Origin: Pycnococcus provasolii
Taxonomy: Eukaryota; Chlorophyta; Pseudoscourfieldiophyceae; Pseudoscourfieldiales; Pycnococcaceae
DNA length: 64,000 bases
NCBI GenBank assembly: GCA_938743325.2
Contig: OW568871.1
Coordinates: 558,001-622,000, forward strand
Direction of reading: 5' to 3'
Each line of letters starts with the position of its first letter. The first letter of the stretch is position 1. A program made the position numbers and the translations under genes. The notes beneath the pieces were generated by a model. It did no database searches. It had not been told where the DNA came from and saw only the letters and a program-made list of their open reading frames with translations. Positions 1 through 63,776 of this stretch are shown here, in pieces.

Positions 1-876
1 GTGGCTTGCGCGCGGATGGTCCCATCGCGCCTCGCGGCTTTTCTTGTGCAGGTAGAACGGCACGCCGCTCGCGCTGTCGATGTGGGTATCCCAGTCGCGA
101 GGCACCGGGCACATCAGGCTCTGCACGGCAAGCGTCAGAACGTTCCAGTTCTCGCAGTACCTCTGCGGCGCGCCGAGTGATTGCGCGTGTCGCAGCACCT
201 CGTCCCACGGCGGCGGCTCTTCGACGGAGTAGACGCCGCCCGCGGCGGTCGCAAGCCTGCCTAGTCCTGCGTTCGCGGCACCTCCGAGGCTTGCGCGGAA
301 CAGCTCCTCGTCGATGTCCAAGCGTTCCGTGGATATGTTTGCAGGCATCGCCACGGCTGTGTCGTCGTCGCGTGGCGAGGTTGCGCCCAGAGTGGGCCGC
401 ATGAACGGCGGGTGCGCCACGAACGAGGGAAGCGTGTCGTCATCCGTTCTTGCCGCAACGGTTGGTGCCGACGTTTCTCCTAGCAGGTTGTCAAAGTCAT
501 CCTCCGGCGATGCGAGGGGTCTTGGAGGCCACGGAGGAGATGGTTGCGATGAGGTTGGAGGAGAGTCGTTTGACGTCGTTTGGTGGTACACCTCTCTTGA
601 GTCGTCCGCGCTTTCAGGCGCCGGCGCAATGCGTTCTCCTCTTCTTGACGCTGACGGTTGTTGTTGTTGTTGTTGTTGTTGTTGTGCGGCGTTGCTGTCT
701 TGGCCGCCGCTGTTAAGGTTCGTCGTCGTCGTCGGCGGCGTCGTGTCAGAACTTCCCCCCATAAGGGACGCCTCCGCCGCGCCTGTGCCTCCATGAGCGT
801 TCGGGGAAACAACTTCGTTCTCTGAGCTCCGAGGACTCGGAACGAACACACCAACACATGCACACGATGGACGCAT
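1..876 (-). CDS. WW-domain protein, CEP164-like N-terminal region (partial, 3' part beyond the window)
   Basis: An open minus-strand frame runs from an ATG at 876 (G at -3) to the left edge, about 292 codons, without a stop. An alternative ATG is at 762. The first 170 residues are disordered, with a run of nine Gln encoded by CAA codons near 660-690. The last ~75 codons look ordered: a short helical stretch, then a WW domain whose first Trp is in RDWDTH and whose second is in ARWDHP, separated by a G..FY.H strand. The pattern 'LA....PVPRDW...FY....WDHP' resembles the WW module at the N terminus of CEP164, a centriole distal-appendage protein needed for cilium assembly. Family assignment is inference from that pattern; the WW domain itself is clear. 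The C-terminal part lies outside the window. Confidence 0.6.
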   Translation of the reverse strand, partial: MRPSCACVGVFVPSPRSSENEVVSPNAHGGTGAAEASLMGGSSDTTPPTTTTNLNSGGQDSNAAQQQQQQQQQPSASRRGERIAPAPESADDSREVYHQTTSNDSPPTSSQPSPPWPPRPLASPEDDFDNLLGETSAPTVAARTDDDTLPSFVAHPPFMRPTLGATSPRDDDTAVAMPANISTERLDIDEELFRASLGGAANAGLGRLATAAGGVYSVEEPPPWDEVLRHAQSLGAPQRYCENWNVLTLAVQSLMCPVPRDWDTHIDSASGVPFYLHKKSREARWDHPRASH

Positions 877-38792: not shown

Positions 38793-39956
38793 CTATTGCT
38801 TCGTCGTCTGGCGCTTCGAGTTCTCCTGGAGGTTCACGCGCGTGTAGAGTGCCATGCACACAAGCGCCATGAACGAGCCCACCATGCTCTTCGAGGTCAT
38901 GCCATTATCGAAAACGAGCATTCCCATGATGATGATGCTGATCGTCTTGAAGAGAGCCAGCACCGCGTACGTGACTGGGCCGAACGTGCCGTTGATGGAT
39001 ACCGAGCTCCAGTTGACGCAAAAGGAGAGGCAGGCGGACGTGATTAACAGCGTGTAGCCGGGCACTCCGAGTTCGCTGAAAAAGTGCAGCTTTTGGACAA
39101 TTAAGGCGAACACGCTCGGCGCCATGCGCGCGTTCTGCGCCTCGTCGAATATACCAATAATGGGCGAAGGCGGCGTGTGCGTGCTGCGCGTGTACTGCAT
39201 CGTGATTGTCTTAACGATGAGAGCGCCGCCGCCGTACTCGAAAACGAATGCAGCGAAGAACATGTAGACGGAGGAGAATACGAGCGTGATGTCGAGAACC
39301 TGCACTGTGACGAGGTGATACGCCTTGTGCAGGTAGCCGAATATCACACTCTCGAGGCTCGTGGCCGCCACGGCGCTGAGTGCGAACGTGACGCCGACGA
39401 TGCTCGTCTCGAGGTCGCCCACCGTGGCAAGACCCACGAATGCCATCATGGCTCCGAGGAGGATCGCGCGCTTGACCGATAGCCTCTTGCCAAGCCAGAA
39501 GTACTCCACGGTCGCTACGAGTGGTCCCTGTGTTAGTTTGGCCAGTTGGTACACGCCGACGGAGTTCACCTTGAGGCTAAGCTGGCTGAGGATCACGCTG
39601 CTCGCCTGCATCATAGCGACGAACATGAGCAGAGGCAGCGGCACGCCAGCCTTATGTGCCGACTCAAAGACGCGCGCCTTGTTTGCTATTTTGAGGAAGA
39701 GGACGTTCACGCACAGGTGTATGCACGAGAGCGTGAATGGTGGGAAACCCGTCTGACGGAACAGCCGCTTGTTCACGTACACGATGGCGTTCGTGATGAG
39801 GAAGTTGAAGGTGAGCAGGAATGCTCCGTGCAAGTTCGATCCGCGCGCCATGCCGAGCGTCTGCTGCTGCTGGTGCTGCTGCACCTGCTGGTCTGTTGTT
39901 TGTTTCTGGCTACTTGTGTTTTCGCTCACCACGTCCCCCGTCGCCGCGGCTTTCAT
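38793..39956 (-). CDS. Drug/metabolite-superfamily transporter (nucleotide-sugar / triose-phosphate translocator type)
   Basis: 387 residues from the ATG at 39956. A Gln-rich N-terminal tail is followed by about ten hydrophobic helices. Family features include NKRLFRQTGFPPFTLSCIHL in the first helix pair, LVATVEYFWLGKRLSVKRAI with the conserved Lys-Arg in the fifth helix region, and a C-terminal NWSSVSINGTFGPVTYAVLALFK segment. The latter matches the TPT/nucleotide-sugar transporter signature (...PVTYAV.G..K.....). It would exchange a nucleotide sugar for the monophosphate in the Golgi, or a phosphorylated C3-C6 compound in plastids. No plastid transit peptide is evident, favouring the Golgi/ER. 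An insert of ~35 residues (SPIIGIFDEAQN) lies between helices. Confidence 0.8.
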   Translation of the reverse strand: MKAAATGDVVSENTSSQKQTTDQQVQQHQQQQTLGMARGSNLHGAFLLTFNFLITNAIVYVNKRLFRQTGFPPFTLSCIHLCVNVLFLKIANKARVFESAHKAGVPLPLLMFVAMMQASSVILSQLSLKVNSVGVYQLAKLTQGPLVATVEYFWLGKRLSVKRAILLGAMMAFVGLATVGDLETSIVGVTFALSAVAATSLESVIFGYLHKAYHLVTVQVLDITLVFSSVYMFFAAFVFEYGGGALIVKTITMQYTRSTHTPPSPIIGIFDEAQNARMAPSVFALIVQKLHFFSELGVPGYTLLITSACLSFCVNWSSVSINGTFGPVTYAVLALFKTISIIIMGMLVFDNGMTSKSMVGSFMALVCMALYTRVNLQENSKRQTTKQ

Positions 39957-40512
39957 ATTTGCGTTTCGACAGAGATCAAGCAAGCTGGTTTTGCAAGCTA
40001 ACAACACGCTAACAAGCTGGTGCCCAAAAGGCTTAAAGCCAAGCGACTGAAATCGAGGAATCGAATCGAGTCTAAAATGAACACAAATGAAAACTCAAAC
40101 CAGGCCACAGCTTACAAAGCGCGGCCTTACCTTACCAAATCAAATCAACACACACGACACGATACAACAATTGAAATATGTGGAACTGCGCGCGGATGCG
40201 GATGCGGATGCGGATGACTGAGGGACGCGCGAGGGTTCCTCCACCCTTCGCTGGACCTGAACTCCCGCCTAAGGGGGTGCCACTCGTTGACGACTCGGGG
40301 CTGAACGATTTTCGTTTTCCGGTGGTCTCATTTTTGCCCGCTGGAATTCCCGTCGCACGTGCGTTGCGTTGCGTTGCAAGCCACACAATAATGGCGACAA
40401 TGGCGGTACATGTAGTACAATGAGGCTTGGTAGCACTTTTGTGTTGTTTTCGGATAGTATCCATTTTTGTGTTGCGCAACTAATAATTTTATATAATAAT
40501 TCATAATCATCG
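39957..40512. promoter_or_regulatory. Divergent intergenic region
   Basis: 556 bp between divergent start codons. It holds a GCGGAT hexamer run at about 40193-40216 and GCGTTGCGTTGCGTTGC at about 40360-40378. A/T-rich sequence (ATAATTTTATATAATAATTC near 40484) lies about 20 bp before the start of the glycosyltransferase-esterase gene and could hold its TATA element. Confidence 0.5.
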
Positions 40513-54907: not shown

Positions 54908-57900
54908 TTACTTTGACGACGTAATTTCTGCGGACATCATCTCCACCTCCGTATCCAACTCGCTGTACAATTCCTGGAGCTCCTTGATTCTTTCGTCATC
55001 CGCGTCCCAGAATCCTCGCCCATGAAGCTCCAGCATTCTCCTAACAACATTCTTGAAAGCCTCCGGGTTCGCCTCGCGCAACTTCTCACGCATCGCCTCA
55101 TCCGCGACGTACGTCTCGAAGCTCTGGTCGTACACAAAGTCGTCCTGGAATCCTGCGGTTCCTGCCCAGCCAACCATCGCCGTGAAGCGCTGGGATATTT
55201 CGAAAGCTCCCCCGGAGCCCTGCTCGCTCATCGCCTCCGCCCATCGTGGATTGAGGAGTCGTGTGCGGTATTCCATTCTCAACGTCTCGTCGAGCTCCTT
55301 CGGATCGTCGTCGCCAAACGTCTCCACAATGCTGCAACCCACCTTAGATGGATCCGCGCCAGACTTTGCCTTGGCTGAGCGCGCCGCGCTGAGCAAAGCG
55401 CCGGTGTTCGCGTAGTACTCCTGGATGTCCGTCAGGCCGTACTCCACGGAGTCGATCGCCTGCACCACGCGATCTGTGGTCGCGAGCAGAGAGTTGAGAA
55501 CCTCCGGCCTCGCCTCGCCTCGCTCACCGCCGCGCCCGTAGCTGAATGAATTGCGATTTACCCACGTGTCGCCAAGCTCGTCTCCCGACGTCCAGTTCCC
55601 AGCACCAACGCGCTCGTTCACCATGCTGCCGTAGTCACCCGCGGGATTCGAAAACAGACGCGCGGTCCCCCTCTCGATGCCCTGGGCCTCCATCGCCCTT
55701 GCGTGCTTTCGGATGAAGTTCCGCTCCTCCGGCTCGTCTGCTGCCGCGGCGCGCTCGAACAGATCGTCGAGCAGACTGACGACATTCGCGAACGTGTCTC
55801 TGAAAATGCCGGACATGTTGCACAGAACGTCCACACGAGGCCGTCCTGGTGGCTGCAGCTCGTCGAGCGGGATCAGCTCGAAACGCGCAACACGGCCCGT
55901 ACCCTCTGCTACCGCACGCGCTCCTACGAGCTCGAGTGCCACGGCGACGCTCTCACCCTTCGTCTTGATCGCGTCGAGACCCCAGAGATTCACGCTCACC
56001 GTCTCGGGGTACACGCCATCGTTGTCAGCCACGTGCTTCGCCAAGATAGCCCGCGCCACCGCGCCGCCTCGCGTCGTCGCGGAGGCGCTGGGCATGCGGT
56101 ATGGGTCAAGTGCGTGGACGTTGCGTCCCGTGGGGAGCACACCCGGTCCGTCGCGGAGCAGGTCGCCACCCGTCGCGGGGGGCACAAATTCGCCATTCAG
56201 GGCGCGGACAACACCGTCGAGTTCCTCGGGAGTGCGCTCGAGCAGCTGCTTGATTTCAATCGCCTCACGAAGCTTCGCCTCGTTCTCAGCGGGGAAGGCG
56301 AGCGACTCACCACCGACTTCCACCTTGCCAGCACACACCGCGGCCACCGCCTCCGTGGAAAGCGAGTCGCCAAAGTACGCCTCGAGGTACGACACAAGCA
56401 CGCCCTCCGTGGGTTTCTGGCCGAGGGTATGGAGTCCAGATGAGAACAGGCGCTGCTCGAGAATGCTGAGGTAGCCGTAAACGTCGTCGGCGTACCGATC
56501 GAAGAGCTCGGGGGAGGTGGACTGCACATCCTCTGCATCTCCCGGGAAGGGAACGTCTGAGGTGAGACCTGCTTTTTCAATCGCTTGCATAATCTGCTCG
56601 CGGAGCGCGAGTCTCACGTCCGCAACGTCAGCGCCCTGCGCCTCACGATATTCGGTGAGCACGGCGCGCGCCTCAGTCAGCGCTGCGTACAGTCCCGAGC
56701 GACCGTACGGGGGCACGTTGTAGCTGACTAACGTTCCGTAGCCGCGTCGCTTCGCCACAACACTCTCGCTCGGATTATTCGCGGCGTAGACGTAGACGTT
56801 CGGTAAGTCAGCAAGGAGTGTATCGCTCCAGCTGTCGTACCCGGTATTGCCCAGCGGGCTACCTGGCAGCCACTCGACAGTGCCGTGCATACCCATGTGT
56901 AGCACGGCATCCGCCTCGTAATCTTCCGAGAGCCACTTGTAGAACGCCGCGTACTGCGGATGCGGCGTGAGGTCGCGCTCGAATAAGAGGCGCATGGGAT
57001 CTCCCTCAACGCCGAGCGCTGGCTGCACGCCAAAGAACACATTGCCGCACTGCACGCCAGCCACGACGAATCCCGACCCGTCCTGCGCGGTTTTGATGCC
57101 ACGATACGCACGAAGATCGCCCCAGGCACTCTGCATGTTCCTGACCATGAGATCACTGGACGGCAGGAAGGGCAGAGGTCCCCACTCCGTTGGTCCGTAT
57201 GATTCGGGAAAGGAGAGCCACTCCTTGAGCAGCGACGGCGACACGACGGTGCCACCCGCTGAGGCAGTATTCGAGGACCCAATCGCCTTTTCAACCGCCT
57301 TCGATGCAGCTCCCATGCCTCGCGCCGCGGCAACCTCGCCCTCGAGCTGACGGAGAACCTCGACGATCGACTCACCCGTTGGCAGGCTGCTGCGATCTCC
57401 ATCATTCGAAAGCTGGTAGCCCTCGTCCGCAAGGCGCGCGATCATCGCGTCAAGACTATTGGGCACATTCAGCAGCGCGGCTGTCCCTGTGGCGCCCACG
57501 CCCGGTGGAAATCCGTACAGGATGACCGCGATGCGCTTTTCGCTCTCCGGCTTGCGTCGCAGTGACACCCACTTTTTCAGGCGCCTGGCTAACGCAACGA
57601 CGCGCTCCTCGGCGAGGAAGATATCGTCGCCCACCAGCCCACCGAGCGTCACGGTGTCTATTGCTCCGTCAAGCTCGGGCAGAGAGTACAGCACGACCGA
57701 CTGCAGGCCGGCAATGCCGTCGCGAGCCCAGCTTGCCATGTCCTGTATGAGGAGCGGTGCGGCAACAACGTACGGAACGTTCTTGGATTGCAGGATGGTT
57801 GACGCGATGTCTTGCTGCCTTCCAGCCTCCATGGTTCCCGCTGGGCCCCCGACGAGGGGAAAGCCGATCGTGCTGACGATCGCGTCCACCATAATTTGCT

Positions 57901-59455
57901 TGCTCTGATCTAGCTTCGATGATCCCACTTGCTGGATTTCATGCTCGGTTGTGAACAGATCGCGCACGACGGTGTGCGCCTCGACGCCATTAATAAACAC
58001 GGGAACTGGCAGCAGATCTTCGCACTCGAGACGACGAATGAGCTGATCGATGTACGGCTGATTGGTGATGACGTGCTTGCGGTAGAGCAGCATACCCACG
58101 ACGGTTTTCGCGGCGTTCGGTTTTTGTTGTCTGTACCACGTCATGTAGTCTGGCAGCGACGTGAAATATCGCTTGTCGTAGTCGGGATGGTACACACCCA
58201 AAGCGGGCGTCTCTATGAGTTTCTGTGGCTTGAGGCGTTGCGAAGACGACTCGTCGAGCAGGTATTCTTTTGCGAGCGTCAAAAATGCCTGCTCGACATT
58301 GTGCTTGCCAGCCTGATTCCAGTACGCGTATATTTGCAGCCAGTTGCGCAGGTCACGCGCCTTCTCTCCGGGAACGAAGCGCAGAAGTGCCGGCCCAATC
58401 TTCAGGAAAGACAGATAACCGACAAGCTTGTCCTCTTCGCGGTTCGAGCCGAACTTGGACAAGATTGCCTTGACCGCGGGCGGCGGACCAGCCTTCTTGC
58501 CGTCTTTAGGTGGCTTCATGGTAAACGTGCCAATGCGTGTGCTGCTCATCAGCTCGAGAGCGGACTCGAATACCAGTCGAGTTGGTATATCTTTAATTCG
58601 CGCGTTGAGCCACTCCACCTGATCGTAGTCGAATAGCAAGGACATGAACACCGCGTTGGCTTGTGCTAGTGCCGATTCGACAGCCTCTGGGTTGCTCTCG
58701 ATGTCTCGGTCGCTGAAGACTTTTATGGAGACAGATTTTGGCAGGTTGAGCGAGTTGTACAGCGAGACGTTGAACGACTCGAAGCCTGTAATGAGAACGA
58801 CGTTTGCTGCTGGTGCTGCTGTTGTCGCGGGTTCTTTTTCTTCGTCTTCGTCTTCTGCAAGCGCCAGAACCTGGCGGGCGTCGGCGTTTTGTATGTGCTT
58901 CTCTAATTTGGCACGAGCTCGATCGAGAAGCAGGCGTGTTGACGCGGCGTCGCGTTGAAATGCCGTCCACTCCGGTTTGGTTTCTGCGCTTTGCATAATT
59001 TTTGAGAAGGTTTCTCCGTCTTCTTCCAGAGCGAGTCGCTTGAAGGCCGCCTCGTCGTTGATGCGTTCGTCGACTGTCGAGAAGAAGTTTGAGTAGGCAT
59101 CGTCAAGTGATGTTTGCATTGAGGAGACTTCGTTTGCTAGCCTGAGACGCTCCTCCTCCTGCGCCGAAGCGTCGGCGGATGCGTCGTCATCATCCGGGTT
59201 CATCGCGAGGATCTCCGCAGAGAACTGCTCCGCGGGCGAAGAAGATGACGCGGATGCCGAGGAGGACGAAGCATTGCGATAACCCCCTCCTAACCCCCTA
59301 CTGATAGCGGAGGAGCTATGAGGAGCACGATGAGCAGAGGCAACACCATAGACGTGAGCACCATAGACGTGAGCACGAGAACGAACGCACGCATTCTTGA
59401 CGCACGCGCTACGCACAGACATCCTCCTCAAGGACGTCGACGTCGACGTCGGCAT
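54908..59455 (-). CDS. CHLH: Magnesium chelatase subunit H, plastid precursor
   Basis: 1515 residues from the ATG at 59455 (a second ATG, 59422, would also leave a transit peptide). ChlH binds protoporphyrin IX and, with ChlI/ChlD, inserts Mg2+ in the first committed step of chlorophyll synthesis in the plastid. The N-terminal ~110 residues are Ser/Arg/Ala-rich (transit peptide plus linker). The ChlH N-terminal domain follows (VVLITGFESFNVSLYNSL, then FMSLLFDYDQVEWL). The CobN/Mg-chelatase core includes LHMGMHGTVEWLPGSPLGNT, YVYAANNPSESVVAKRRGYG and LVSYNVPPYGRSGLYAAL, and the C-terminal part FEISQRFTAMVGWAGTAGFQ. The protein is about 120 residues longer than the usual ~1380-1400, mostly in the N-terminal extension. 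A TTAGGG-type box lies ~150 bp upstream. Confidence 0.97.
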   Translation of the reverse strand: MPTSTSTSLRRMSVRSACVKNACVRSRAHVYGAHVYGVASAHRAPHSSSAISRGLGGGYRNASSSSASASSSSPAEQFSAEILAMNPDDDDASADASAQEEERLRLANEVSSMQTSLDDAYSNFFSTVDERINDEAAFKRLALEEDGETFSKIMQSAETKPEWTAFQRDAASTRLLLDRARAKLEKHIQNADARQVLALAEDEDEEKEPATTAAPAANVVLITGFESFNVSLYNSLNLPKSVSIKVFSDRDIESNPEAVESALAQANAVFMSLLFDYDQVEWLNARIKDIPTRLVFESALELMSSTRIGTFTMKPPKDGKKAGPPPAVKAILSKFGSNREEDKLVGYLSFLKIGPALLRFVPGEKARDLRNWLQIYAYWNQAGKHNVEQAFLTLAKEYLLDESSSQRLKPQKLIETPALGVYHPDYDKRYFTSLPDYMTWYRQQKPNAAKTVVGMLLYRKHVITNQPYIDQLIRRLECEDLLPVPVFINGVEAHTVVRDLFTTEHEIQQVGSSKLDQSKQIMVDAIVSTIGFPLVGGPAGTMEAGRQQDIASTILQSKNVPYVVAAPLLIQDMASWARDGIAGLQSVVLYSLPELDGAIDTVTLGGLVGDDIFLAEERVVALARRLKKWVSLRRKPESEKRIAVILYGFPPGVGATGTAALLNVPNSLDAMIARLADEGYQLSNDGDRSSLPTGESIVEVLRQLEGEVAAARGMGAASKAVEKAIGSSNTASAGGTVVSPSLLKEWLSFPESYGPTEWGPLPFLPSSDLMVRNMQSAWGDLRAYRGIKTAQDGSGFVVAGVQCGNVFFGVQPALGVEGDPMRLLFERDLTPHPQYAAFYKWLSEDYEADAVLHMGMHGTVEWLPGSPLGNTGYDSWSDTLLADLPNVYVYAANNPSESVVAKRRGYGTLVSYNVPPYGRSGLYAALTEARAVLTEYREAQGADVADVRLALREQIMQAIEKAGLTSDVPFPGDAEDVQSTSPELFDRYADDVYGYLSILEQRLFSSGLHTLGQKPTEGVLVSYLEAYFGDSLSTEAVAAVCAGKVEVGGESLAFPAENEAKLREAIEIKQLLERTPEELDGVVRALNGEFVPPATGGDLLRDGPGVLPTGRNVHALDPYRMPSASATTRGGAVARAILAKHVADNDGVYPETVSVNLWGLDAIKTKGESVAVALELVGARAVAEGTGRVARFELIPLDELQPPGRPRVDVLCNMSGIFRDTFANVVSLLDDLFERAAAADEPEERNFIRKHARAMEAQGIERGTARLFSNPAGDYGSMVNERVGAGNWTSGDELGDTWVNRNSFSYGRGGERGEARPEVLNSLLATTDRVVQAIDSVEYGLTDIQEYYANTGALLSAARSAKAKSGADPSKVGCSIVETFGDDDPKELDETLRMEYRTRLLNPRWAEAMSEQGSGGAFEISQRFTAMVGWAGTAGFQDDFVYDQSFETYVADEAMREKLREANPEAFKNVVRRMLELHGRGFWDADDERIKELQELYSELDTEVEMMSAEITSSK

Positions 59456-59605
59456 GCTAAAGTTTATGCTGAGCCGAATGCGAGGCCTGCTTCGTGTGCG
59501 GAAAGGGAACTCCGGGGGGGGAGGGGAGGAAGAAAATCTCAAACCAGGAAATTCTGTGGCTCCTGAGTGTCTGTGTCAGCCTCGTTGGGTGGGGGGAAGG
59601 AAGGG

Positions 59606-59636
59606 ATCCGGGTTAGGGTTTAGGGTTACGGGCTGA
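59606..59636 (+). repeat. Short telomere-type box upstream of ChlH
   Basis: Reads GGGTTAGGGTTTAGGGTTACGGG, with both TTAGGG and TTTAGGG spacing. It sits between the ChlH start and the end of the next minus-strand gene. Confidence 0.8.
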
Positions 59637-59673: not shown

Positions 59674-62600
59674 TTACTTCGCGGTTGAGTGACTCAGCGC
59701 CGTTTGCGCCACCTTCAGCGCCGCAACTCGCTCACCCTCCGCCTCTGCTGCCGCTCGACCCAACTGACGCACTAGCACACCGCCTCTATCAAGAACACGG
59801 TAGAGCGTGTCCGTGGCGGCGATGCGCTCGTTCAGTAACGCGCACGCCGACTCGCTCGCACCCGCGCCGCCGTGCGCGCATCGTGCCAGCTCCGCCGCCC
59901 TGTCGCGACGCAGCGCCTCGACGTCGCCAGCCAGGCGGTCGCGGCCGTACGCGCGCGCGCGCGCGTCCATCGCAGCCGTCGCCGCTTTGTAGAGGCGGCG
60001 GTCCTTCGCGTGGAGACGCTCCACCTGCTTCGTCGCGAACGGCGTCACGTCGCCAACGTGCGCGTCGGCGCCGTGGAACTCCTCCAGCGCCTTCTTGCGC
60101 CCCTCCTCGCCGCCGTCGCCGAGCAGGCGCTGGCGGCGGAACGCCATATCCGCGTATGCACCCAGCTCAGCCTTTCCGTCGGCTGCCCGCCGAAACGGCG
60201 GCAGCACGCCGTGCGCCACCAGCCAGGCCCGCAAGAGCACGATGCTCTCATCGAACCTCTCGTGCACAACAACAAAACATTCGTCGCTCTCCAGAAGAGA
60301 CCCAGGCAACGCACGCGCCTGCCGATTCACGAGCGGCTGACTCGCCATCGGCCAGTCGAAGTCACCCTCCAGCTCATCGACGGATGCGCCCTCATTCTTC
60401 GCGAGCCACTCCTCCAGCGTGGAATTCAGGAGACGCGACCATCCAACAAACTCCCAGTCGCTCAAGAATCGTCGAACAGGGTCACGCACGCTGCTGACGA
60501 CGAGCGGCGATGAGCCAAGCAGCCTTGTGCCAAACTCCAGCGAGTGGTTACCCGTGATGTGAGCTAGAAAAACGTCAGGCATCTGACTCACCTTGGCCAC
60601 GGAAGTTCTCACTTTCAGGTCCGCAGGATCGAGGTAGTCGTACTGCGTGCCATTGCCGGTGGGTGCCATCGTTCCCCACAGCGTGAAGTGCTCGACGCGC
60701 CGGCTTGGTCGATACACGCGCCGGTTCGTATTTAGCGCGAGGCGCGCCAGCACACTCGCCAGAACCGTGGATGCCGTCTTGTGCGTCTTGATGAGCATGA
60801 TTGGCTTTTTGCGCTCGCTCTCCTCTTCTTCTGCAGCGCAGCTCTCGTCCTGAACAATCGCCGCCTCTCGACTCAGCGCGTCAATCAGGCGCACGGCATA
60901 CTTGAGATTGATCGCCTCCGTCTCAAGCGCGGCATGTGCAGCTTGCAGGGCACCTTCGACGTCACCTCGGTTGTACATCACAGCCGCAAGCATTTCCCAA
61001 GCGCGCCCACGCTCGTGATCCTTTGCTGACCGAACCGCCCTGACGGCTAGTCGCGTCGCGGCATCTCGCATAATTTTGGAGAAAGCCACATCCTCGTCGT
61101 CCGCAAGCATGAGAAGTGGGAGAACGACATGCGCCGTGGCGTTGATTGACACCGGGTCCACCTCAAGCGCAGTTGCGATGTGCTTCCAGCTCGCTTCGCT
61201 CAGCGCGAGTGTATATCCCAGTTCGGAACAAACGAAGTTGCTGGTTGCAGCGGCAAGCTCAACACGAGCCCTGGCATGCGCCTTCGCACCCGCGGGACTG
61301 TTCGCAACAAGCTGCGACTTGCTGTAGCCGTCCGCAAGTGCTCTCTCCAGATTCCAACGCGACGCATCCGTCCACATGCGTTTGGATGTTTGGAAAGTTC
61401 GCACCGCTTGTATGGTATTTCCGACGATCGCAGCGAGCGCTCGGCTTTCCGACTTGCACGTATCTGTCTCATGAGAGCTTTCTTCTGCGACGGTAATGTC
61501 GGTGAGGTTCTTCAGCAGGCTTTGCAAGTCAAGGCTTGGCGATTCTGTGATGTTCTTGTCATTCACGACAAATGCGAGCGCGCGGGACAGCGTTTCGTCG
61601 GCTGCCAGCGTGGCGCACAGCCGCCGGGGCGACGAGGTTGTGAATTTGCCGTCGACCATGAGCGGGTCCCCGCTGTGCATCTGCATGACCGAGGGGTTGA
61701 ATGTTTTCTCACTCGTCGTCGCGTCCGTGGCCAGCACCACGCAGAACGACGCAACGCGCGCAAGGCAAGCGGCAGTAGCGGTTAAAGTTAGCGTATTTTT
61801 GGTCATGCCGCGCGTCGACGGTCGTTTGCGCAGTTGTTGCATGTGCGAGCGAGTCGTGACTCCTATCGTTGGAGTCGACGTGTTCGGTGGTGCCAGGTCG
61901 TCTTCAAGTTTGTCCACCTTTTGGCTTCTGCTCTGAGAGGAGGAGGAGGTTGTCACGTGCATGTAACTCGCAAAGCCTACGACAAACACGGCAAAGCCTC
62001 TTATGAGTGTGGGCCATCGCCGGTCGCAGACGTACTGCAGCATGCTGCTGATGGCCAAGCCTCCGACCGCCGCACATCCTTTGGCAACACCACCAAGCTT
62101 TCGCGTGACGAGTCCAACGAGCAAACCGCCAACGGCGTTGATCCACACGACGGGCGAAGTTGACACGCTGACAGCGTCACTCCACGACCCTTTCGTCGTG
62201 AGAAGGATTGGGAGCACAGCAAAGAGCGACATTTCGATGGAAAACCACGCGACTGGGATGGCTGAAAACTTCCGCATCAGCCGCTGGCAAATGCATGCCG
62301 AGAGCCCGGAGAGGGCTGCCGCCAAAAGCACGCACGTCACACCACTTGCGACGACGAGCGTGCTGTTGTCGACGGCATCTTTTGGGCTGCTTGCTTGTTC
62401 TTGATTGCAGCTCAGCGGCATCGCGGCAGCCCCGAGCGCGGAGATGGCGGTGAGCTGCTTACGCGTTTGTGCCTCACCGAGTATCAGATACGCGAAGAGA
62501 GCGGTCCAGAGGATTTTCGTCTGCACGAGTGCGGCGAAGGTTGCGCCGTCGACGTGTCTGCTCGCGAACGCCATGAGCAGGTTTTGCACCATGTACAGGA

Positions 62601-62859
62601 CTGCAGGGATTCCCGCGAGTGCGAGTTGCGTTGACGTGGTGTTGCTGAATGCTTTTTTGATGGCACCATTTCCCGAAAGCAGCAAGGCTGCCGTCGCCGT
62701 GACCGTTTTCGCCGCCTCGATGGCGATGACGATTCCCGCGCTGCTGATGGAGTGCGGTATGGATCGCGCGAGATGCGACTGGATTCCGTAGATGGACGCG
62801 AGTGCGCCGAGGCAGACGAACGCCAATCTGCGCTCATTTTCATTCATCATCACGATCAT
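59674..62859 (-). CDS. Fusion of nucleotide-sugar transporter, TPR segment and galactose-3-O-sulfotransferase-like domain
   Basis: 1061 residues in one frame from the ATG at 62859. Residues ~1-300 are an SLC35A-type nucleotide-sugar transporter with about ten helices, including YMVQNLLMAFASRHVDGATF and LVQTKILWTALFAYLILGEA. A basic cytosolic linker (MQQLRKRPSTRGMTKN, ~340-355) precedes an extra hydrophobic helix (~357-380) that would act as a signal anchor. A TPR-like helical region (~550-665, GRAWEMLAAVMYNRGDVEGALQAAHAAL) follows. Then comes a sulfotransferase: IMLIKTHKTASTVL is the 5'-phosphosulfate loop of PAPS enzymes (residues ~688-700), and VVSSVRDPVRRFLSDWEF is the 3'-phosphate site (~787-804), closest to galactose-3-O-sulfotransferases. 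Topology places the transporter ends in the cytosol and the sulfotransferase in the Golgi lumen. Confidence 0.8.
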   Translation of the reverse strand: MIVMMNENERRLAFVCLGALASIYGIQSHLARSIPHSISSAGIVIAIEAAKTVTATAALLLSGNGAIKKAFSNTTSTQLALAGIPAVLYMVQNLLMAFASRHVDGATFAALVQTKILWTALFAYLILGEAQTRKQLTAISALGAAAMPLSCNQEQASSPKDAVDNSTLVVASGVTCVLLAAALSGLSACICQRLMRKFSAIPVAWFSIEMSLFAVLPILLTTKGSWSDAVSVSTSPVVWINAVGGLLVGLVTRKLGGVAKGCAAVGGLAISSMLQYVCDRRWPTLIRGFAVFVVGFASYMHVTTSSSSQSRSQKVDKLEDDLAPPNTSTPTIGVTTRSHMQQLRKRPSTRGMTKNTLTLTATAACLARVASFCVVLATDATTSEKTFNPSVMQMHSGDPLMVDGKFTTSSPRRLCATLAADETLSRALAFVVNDKNITESPSLDLQSLLKNLTDITVAEESSHETDTCKSESRALAAIVGNTIQAVRTFQTSKRMWTDASRWNLERALADGYSKSQLVANSPAGAKAHARARVELAAATSNFVCSELGYTLALSEASWKHIATALEVDPVSINATAHVVLPLLMLADDEDVAFSKIMRDAATRLAVRAVRSAKDHERGRAWEMLAAVMYNRGDVEGALQAAHAALETEAINLKYAVRLIDALSREAAIVQDESCAAEEEESERKKPIMLIKTHKTASTVLASVLARLALNTNRRVYRPSRRVEHFTLWGTMAPTGNGTQYDYLDPADLKVRTSVAKVSQMPDVFLAHITGNHSLEFGTRLLGSSPLVVSSVRDPVRRFLSDWEFVGWSRLLNSTLEEWLAKNEGASVDELEGDFDWPMASQPLVNRQARALPGSLLESDECFVVVHERFDESIVLLRAWLVAHGVLPPFRRAADGKAELGAYADMAFRRQRLLGDGGEEGRKKALEEFHGADAHVGDVTPFATKQVERLHAKDRRLYKAATAAMDARARAYGRDRLAGDVEALRRDRAAELARCAHGGAGASESACALLNERIAATDTLYRVLDRGGVLVRQLGRAAAEAEGERVAALKVAQTALSHSTAK

Positions 62860-63776
62860 CAAAATCAAGCAAAATCAAGCAAGCGTCGTAATAATCAATC
62901 AATCCCTCAGGACTCCTCCTGAGGAGGGAGTGAGGAGTGAGTGGCGGCACCTGGTGGTTGGTTGTGCCGACGAGTGGTATCCTATACGAGTGCGTTTGCT
63001 TTTGTGTCGCCGCTAAGTACTTTAGCTAGTGTGAATGACAGTGACACACAACACAATACAAAGTTAACCTTAGTTGTTGGTGATGACAGATACAGGGACA
63101 CAAGTCAAGTAACGGCTCGGCTGTCACACACACACACACCTAGCTAGGATTTAGGAAGGCGTACAACAGGGGCCCACCCACCCACCCATTCTCGAGGGTA
63201 GAAATCTCACTCCGAAGTCCGAACTGGACAGGCACTAGGCAACCTCAAAACCCGAATGTTAATGCATGGAACCCCGAAATGCAAAAGGGACCCGAAAAGC
63301 AACCCATCAAGCATGAAGCAACCTGGTTGAGGGGCTAATAACCCAACCTCATCATGAGGGAGGGGTTCGTTGGTGACATTCTCCCCCGTCCCCCCTTGGC
63401 CCCTTCCAGACCCCCCCTCCCCTCATCCCAGGTCTCTCTCTTCCCCAAGCCAAGCTTCTTGCTTGGGGATCCACCCATTGGCCTTGCGGGGGGCCTTCCT
63501 TGGTCCCCTTCCTTTCCTTCGGGCTGTCGGGGGAGTTGTTAACTTTCCCGGCCCCCTGCTCACTCAGAAAAAGCCTGCTTTGTTGTTGTTGGTTTTTCCC
63601 TCCCTCGTTTTCCCCCTCTCCCGCCCCCCTTTCTCCGTTTTCTCCCCTGACAGACAGATCCCCGGTGTCATTCTCATTCATTCTCACACGCACGCAACAG
63701 CTGTCATTTTGCTCACGGCTTTGTTCATTTTCTCTCTCTTTTGTGGAACCATAGATAGATAGGAACAACAGCAATC
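62860..63776. promoter_or_regulatory. Divergent intergenic region
   Basis: About 0.9 kb without a supported gene. It has a dyad CAGGACTCCTCCTGAGGAG near 62908-62927, an ACACACACACAC run at 63126-63138, CCCAC repeats at 63173-63186 and long polypyrimidine stretches (63380-63650) leading to the next gene. Open frames in the polypyrimidine DNA are compositional only. Confidence 0.55.

Follow-up and report, generated by a model that had tools for sequence, protein, structure and literature searches.

A single gene on the minus strand of the window, the 64,000-base stretch of DNA analysed here, appears to encode an SLC35A-type Golgi nucleotide-sugar transporter fused to a type II Golgi enzyme of the Gal-3-O-sulfotransferase family, a reading to which we give a probability of about 0.6. 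Judged from the sequence, this is plausibly a new combination of two known families, for which a mechanism can be proposed. The gene occupies one stop-to-stop frame without internal stops; counting from the first Met it comprises 1061 codons. The initial annotation had described the same single frame with the same coordinates and had not given the strand; plus-strand translation of 59674-62859 contains many stops. The frame corresponds to positions 617674-620874 of a 900,609-base contig, far from the contig ends, and the genome searched comprised 32.3 Mb in 46 contigs. Residue numbers below refer to the stop-to-stop frame, in which the first Met is residue 6. The features of the frame are:

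59674..62874, minus strand: the entire frame from stop to stop (1066 codons and the stop codon); its first Met lies at 62859
61951..62859, minus strand: nucleotide-sugar transporter half, residues 6-308, with the PF04142 match at residues 48-281 (62032-62733)
61807..61950, minus strand: hydrophilic linker, residues 309-356, coding-like in the shared frame
61729..61785, minus strand: extra membrane helix predicted from hydropathy, residues 364-382; the first Met of a would-be separate gene is at 61806
60805..61725, minus strand: probably helical stem, residues 384-690, from low-confidence models
60907..61056, minus strand: weak TPR-like stretch, residues 607-656, from a Pfam score below cut-off and PDB matches
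60220..60846, minus strand: Gal-3-O-sulfotransferase match PF06990 (Pfam), residues 677-885
60766..60789, minus strand: the sequence KTHKTAST, presumably the 5'-phosphosulfate-binding loop
60466..60492, minus strand: the sequence SVRDPVRRF, presumably the 3'-phosphate-binding loop
59677..60219, minus strand: C-terminal part, residues 886-1066, in which Pfam reported nothing at E 1 or better

Directly downstream of the fusion lies a gene for a CobN/Mg-chelatase H-type protein (window 54908-59542, minus strand, a frame of 1544 residues), and the short telomere-like sequence GGGTTAGGGTTTAGGG occurs between the two genes at window 59610-59625. A further SLC35-like carrier, of the PF03151 triose-phosphate transporter family, is encoded at window 38793-40094 (minus strand). 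Because of the adjacent chelatase-type gene and 46 chlorophyll-binding matches in the genome, some of which are pieces of one gene, the sequence indicates that the host is a photosynthetic eukaryote, likely a green alga. Twelve of the chlorophyll-binding matches have an identical score (92.2 bits) and form two clusters of six, at G000:C31:133072-142609 and C31:360395-366434, about 218 kb apart.

The domain content of the chain was examined with Pfam. In the full chain the nucleotide-sugar transporter family PF04142 matched residues 48-281 with an E value of 7.5e-14 and 52 bits against a cut-off of 27, and the transporter half scanned alone gave 54.4 bits, in agreement with the SLC35A-type assignment made initially. 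The Gal-3-O-sulfotransferase family PF06990 matched residues 677-885 (E 1.3e-9, 38 bits against a cut-off of 27), with 45.4 bits for the C-terminal 439 residues scanned alone; the best stretch covers positions 55-259 of the 402 in the profile, or about half. Both motifs that had been named as PAPS-binding loops are present within this match, and we take KTHKTAST and SVRDPVRRF to have these roles. The NCBIfam models gave no match to the fusion chain.

The TPR-like segment proposed between the two domains is weak. No TPR model reached its cut-off in the chain (TPR_2, 10.9 bits vs 27; TPR_CcmH_CycH, 13.7 vs 42), and the best PDB matches were designed TPR proteins at an E value of 0.0016. The full-chain structure prediction that the initial annotation had called for was run with a single-sequence method and was too poor to serve as fold evidence, with a mean pLDDT of 40.0 for the whole chain and 38.5 for the sulfotransferase half. 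In these same low-confidence models residues 416-681 were largely helical, and the stem between the extra helix and the sulfotransferase is probably helical.

The two families differ in their abundance in the genome. PF06990 has one match only, which is the fusion itself, and a search with the sulfotransferase half found no other match in the genome at E 1. Further sulfotransferases are represented by nine PF13469 and six PF00685 matches, partly in the same genes; PF03567 gave no match, with the positive control equally silent. PF04142 has 12 matches at E 0.001; the frames of the other 11 are 330 to 626 codons long, and none of the 11 coincides in position with a PF06990, PF13469 or PF00685 match. 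Scans started from exact peptides confirmed no relatives of the transporter half in viral contigs and none of the C-terminal 439 residues in bacterial genomes, archaeal genomes or viral contigs. In the available text of a review, chlorophyte polysaccharide sulfotransferases are detected by PF00685, those of red algae mainly by PF03567 and PF06990, and those of brown algae by all three (PMC11625862). Since the chlorophyte enzymes in that review are detected by PF00685, PF06990 would be a less usual family for a green algal enzyme. In the available text of another paper, however, a figure legend marks algal sequences with PF06990, with no lineage apparent there (PMC4659905), and carbohydrate sulfotransferases are reported in chlorophytes in a text whose available part gives no PF06990 count (PMC12506393).

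A Sulfotransfer_3 domain also occurs in a very large gene on another contig. The minus strand of G000:C22:237401-308161 (loci L036, L043 and L046-L053) contains a stop-free frame of 23,586 codons, the last 1095 of which encode ketoacyl-synthase and Sulfotransfer_3 domains; the domains of these last codons suggest a giant gene of the polyketide-synthase type. The end of this frame recurs as a second, opposite-strand copy at and around G000:C22:308673-308831 (plus strand, L038), some 500 bases past the start of the frame; L036 (from residue 708) and L038 (from residue 180) share 388 identical residues.

The membrane topology was derived from hydropathy and charge. SLC35A proteins have ten membrane helices and two cytosolic ends; in the fusion, ten hydropathy peaks fall in residues 17-307 and one more at 364-382; the count of ten is approximate, as three peaks overlap end to end (84-132) and none occurs at 141-160, where the fifth helix is expected. 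The net charge is +6 before the extra helix (residues 340-363) and -2 after it (383-406), which by the positive-inside rule would place the sulfotransferase in the lumen. The second membrane anchor that had been proposed to carry the sulfotransferase into the lumen is supported by these values. Residues 384-1066 contain six N-glycosylation sequons, compared with 2.5 in shuffles (P 0.028). The topology is less settled because two weaker peaks above threshold (419-437 and 572-590) fall in the presumed luminal part. A Golgi location with a luminal sulfotransferase is proposed and considered likely, and the predicted layout is the one that would result from attaching a whole type II enzyme, beginning at Met357, to a transporter.

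PDB sequences matching the transporter half were the mouse (6OH4) and maize (6I1R) CMP-sialic acid transporters, and identity to the mouse protein (CST) was 22.4% (61/272) by phmmer and 20.5% by MAFFT. The residues described as critical in SLC35A1 are Y214, which is Gly in SLC35A2, and E52, K55, K124, T128, S188 and K272 (Li and Mukhopadhyay, PMC8411240, available text). The latter six, which are shared with SLC35A2, are all kept in the fusion; Y98, Q101 and N102 are likewise conserved, and the phmmer and MAFFT alignments agree. Other hallmarks are lost. The TM6 glutamate, present in mouse CST and in all eight aligned paralogs, is Gln in the fusion (the alignment took in 8 of the 11 other PF04142 matches, leaving out L016-L018). 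Positions N210 and Y214 are both Ser, Y117 and Y121 are replaced by Phe and Val, and the YAD/TDN motif preceding K272 is missing. An initial suspicion that the transporter half had decayed was examined by this residue-by-residue check, in which the critical pocket was found to be kept though other hallmarks were lost.

These substitutions bear on whether the transporter half still transports. It could be a degenerate, non-transporting anchor in a real fusion, serving only to place or oligomerise the sulfotransferase. Besides the lost hallmarks, this would fit with the replacement of the SLC35A2 beta-phosphate glutamines Q129 and Q278 by Met and Asn and with a PF04142 score that is the lowest of the eight best matches in the genome (53.6 bits vs 106.7 to 199.3 for the other seven). 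Retention of all six critical pocket residues speaks against it, whereas among the seven strongest other PF04142 proteins only L008, L009 and L013 keep the full set; one or more of the six are missing from each of the other four (L007, L010, L011 and L012). We consider an inactive anchor unlikely on this balance, and the conserved pocket makes transport activity of the fused half the somewhat better supported expectation. At the nucleobase end the fusion carries the small residues S, G and V at positions 214, 261 and 260, nearer to the G, A and V of SLC35A2 (PMC6508934 and PMC8411240, available text) than to the CMP type. A UDP sugar as substrate is a low-confidence guess from these positions.

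Another explanation is that two adjacent genes share a frame by chance, namely one for a transporter and one for a type II sulfotransferase whose start would be Met357 (61806). The transporter would then either end in a different frame reached by splicing or have lost its stop through mutation or assembly error. The initial annotation had placed the Met of MTKNTLTLT, as a possible start of the second gene, at about 61804; the motif is present at 61780-61806 on the minus strand, with its first Met at 61806. Residues 357-383 do resemble a type II N terminus that carries a signal anchor of its own, and some paralogs have C-terminal tails at least as long as the linker. One PF08449 gene split across two adjacent frames on contig C9 suggests that introns occur in this genome. 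Furthermore, at a stop density of 0.040 per codon (8 of the 22 intergenic pieces of the window) a 48-codon linker would be stop-free by chance in 14% of cases, and both stop-free and in the same frame in about 5%.

Because luck of this kind would arise about 5% of the time, the coding character of the linker was scored with a three-periodic order-3 Markov model, trained on 14 other long frames and 22 intergenic pieces of the window with the fusion excluded. In the shared frame the linker (residues 309-356) scored 0.17, which ranks it at the 26th percentile among 222 coding windows scored leave-one-out. Of 1110 intergenic window-frames, which are not independent because they overlap, 3.1% reached this score. 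Eight 48-codon windows covering residues 261-404 ranked at the 10th-29th percentile of coding, at scores reached by 2.5%-7.5% of intergenic window-frames. The shared frame was the best of six in all eight, narrowly so at 333-380 (0.14 vs 0.12). Plain codon scores over 40 codons were ambiguous at residues 341-380 (-0.05 vs -0.07 for the next frame). The Markov score also dips in undoubted coding sequence, with window 170-217 at the 13th percentile and another frame higher, and at window 400-447 the shared frame ties with another one. The coding score of the linker is support for the shared frame, not proof.

Other observations also oppose two genes. The transporter would lack any stop in this frame, the frame contains no N, and two gene ends would hardly fit into the 56 residues that separate the extra helix from the last peak of the transporter. 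The polyadenylation motif TGTAA follows 5 of 18 gene stops and is absent from the whole fusion frame and from the 200 bases beyond; since it is also missing after the fusion's own end, it is uninformative as a test for gene ends. The most enriched pentamer after gene stops in the window is AGTAA, found after 9 of 18 (200 bases each), about 7.5 times the expectation, a value that carries no correction for multiple pentamers; it is a possible 3'-end signal. Since two adjacent genes would need an absent stop or splicing, the fusion is favored, and both halves are very probably encoded by one true fusion and a single mRNA, as far as the genomic sequence can tell. Two genes sharing a frame by chance seem rather improbable.

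The initial annotation had also raised the import of PAPS itself by the fused transporter. Known PAPS carriers are SLC35B members, belonging to PF08449, a family that was absent from the Pfam matches of the fusion chain at E 1 or better, and the fusion frame is not among the 15 PF08449 matches found in the genome at E 0.001 or better. These 15 include fragments of a single gene and proteins from other transporter families, one of which is the PF04142 protein L007. The protein closest to human SLC35B1 is L024 (164 bits, vs 137 for L023 and 124 for L022), and by motif L022, L023 and L025 presumably resemble SLC35B2/B3, the PAPS-carrier-like type. Since the fused half is of the SLC35A type and the genome has separate SLC35B-type carriers, PAPS import by it is unlikely. 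The linkage to a sulfotransferase and the replacement by Ser of the CMP-type tyrosine Y214 at a nucleobase position could be read in favor of a fused carrier that takes in PAPS or exports its by-product and so feeds the attached enzyme directly, but the SLC35A-type Pfam and PDB matches and the 15 PF08449 matches elsewhere (five with at least 116 bits) make this very improbable.

For the single fused gene, the following arrangement may be proposed. The cytosolic C terminus of the transporter would continue directly into the sulfotransferase's former cytosolic tail and its signal anchor, giving the order transporter helices, cytosolic linker, one more helix, and then the helical stem and catalytic domain in the lumen. 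Because a cytosolic C terminus meets a cytosolic tail, such a join would cost nothing in topology. The fusion would hold the sulfotransferase at the point of nucleotide-sugar entry; sugars attached by a neighboring glycosyltransferase could then be sulfated at once, with PAPS arriving by other carriers. Functional coupling of transport and sulfation is offered tentatively. A naturally evolved one-chain Golgi machine, with an active transporter and a sulfotransferase covalently joined so that import and sulfation occur 1:1 in one spot, is a more doubtful proposition.

The effect of transporter-transferase closeness on flux is difficult to assess as long as the two are distinct proteins. A fusion that arose in nature would, if true, be genetic evidence of selection for such closeness and would help to match transporters to the sulfated glycans that they serve. 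In laboratory work it could also be used as a construct of fixed ratio, to be cut and rejoined.

The fusion can be compared with several known systems. The open-access literature, a scope with most subscription journals outside it, contained no transporter-sulfotransferase domain pair among the matches listed. Like the SLC35A transporters of mouse (6OH4) and maize (6I1R), the fusion has PF04142 and the critical pocket residues, and its hydropathy predicts about ten helices; unlike them, it has lost some hallmarks, is 20-22% identical to mouse CST and is longer by about 710 residues, which include a second enzyme. It resembles the galactose-3-O-sulfotransferases in its PF06990 match over cut-off, its PAPS-loop motifs and the type II-like anchor ahead of them, and differs from them in a probable helical stem of about 300 residues, in the whole transporter preceding the anchor and in a best match that covers about half of the PF06990 profile. 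A transferase-containing fusion is described for the sulfated fucan pathway of the brown alga Nemacystus decipiens, in which a sulfotransferase-domain gene is joined to an alpha/beta hydrolase, where the partner here is a transporter; an RT-PCR product of matching size was obtained there, and in the available text its authors state that the fused mRNA needs further examination (PMC6418280). In Golgi membranes SLC35A2, A3 and A4 assemble with MGATs, which are glycosyltransferases, according to the available text of PMC6453868, a precedent that speaks for the fusion reading. In those assemblies, as in the proposed fusion, a transporter is held beside a luminal transferase; there the partners are separate proteins, whereas here they would form one chain with a sulfotransferase.
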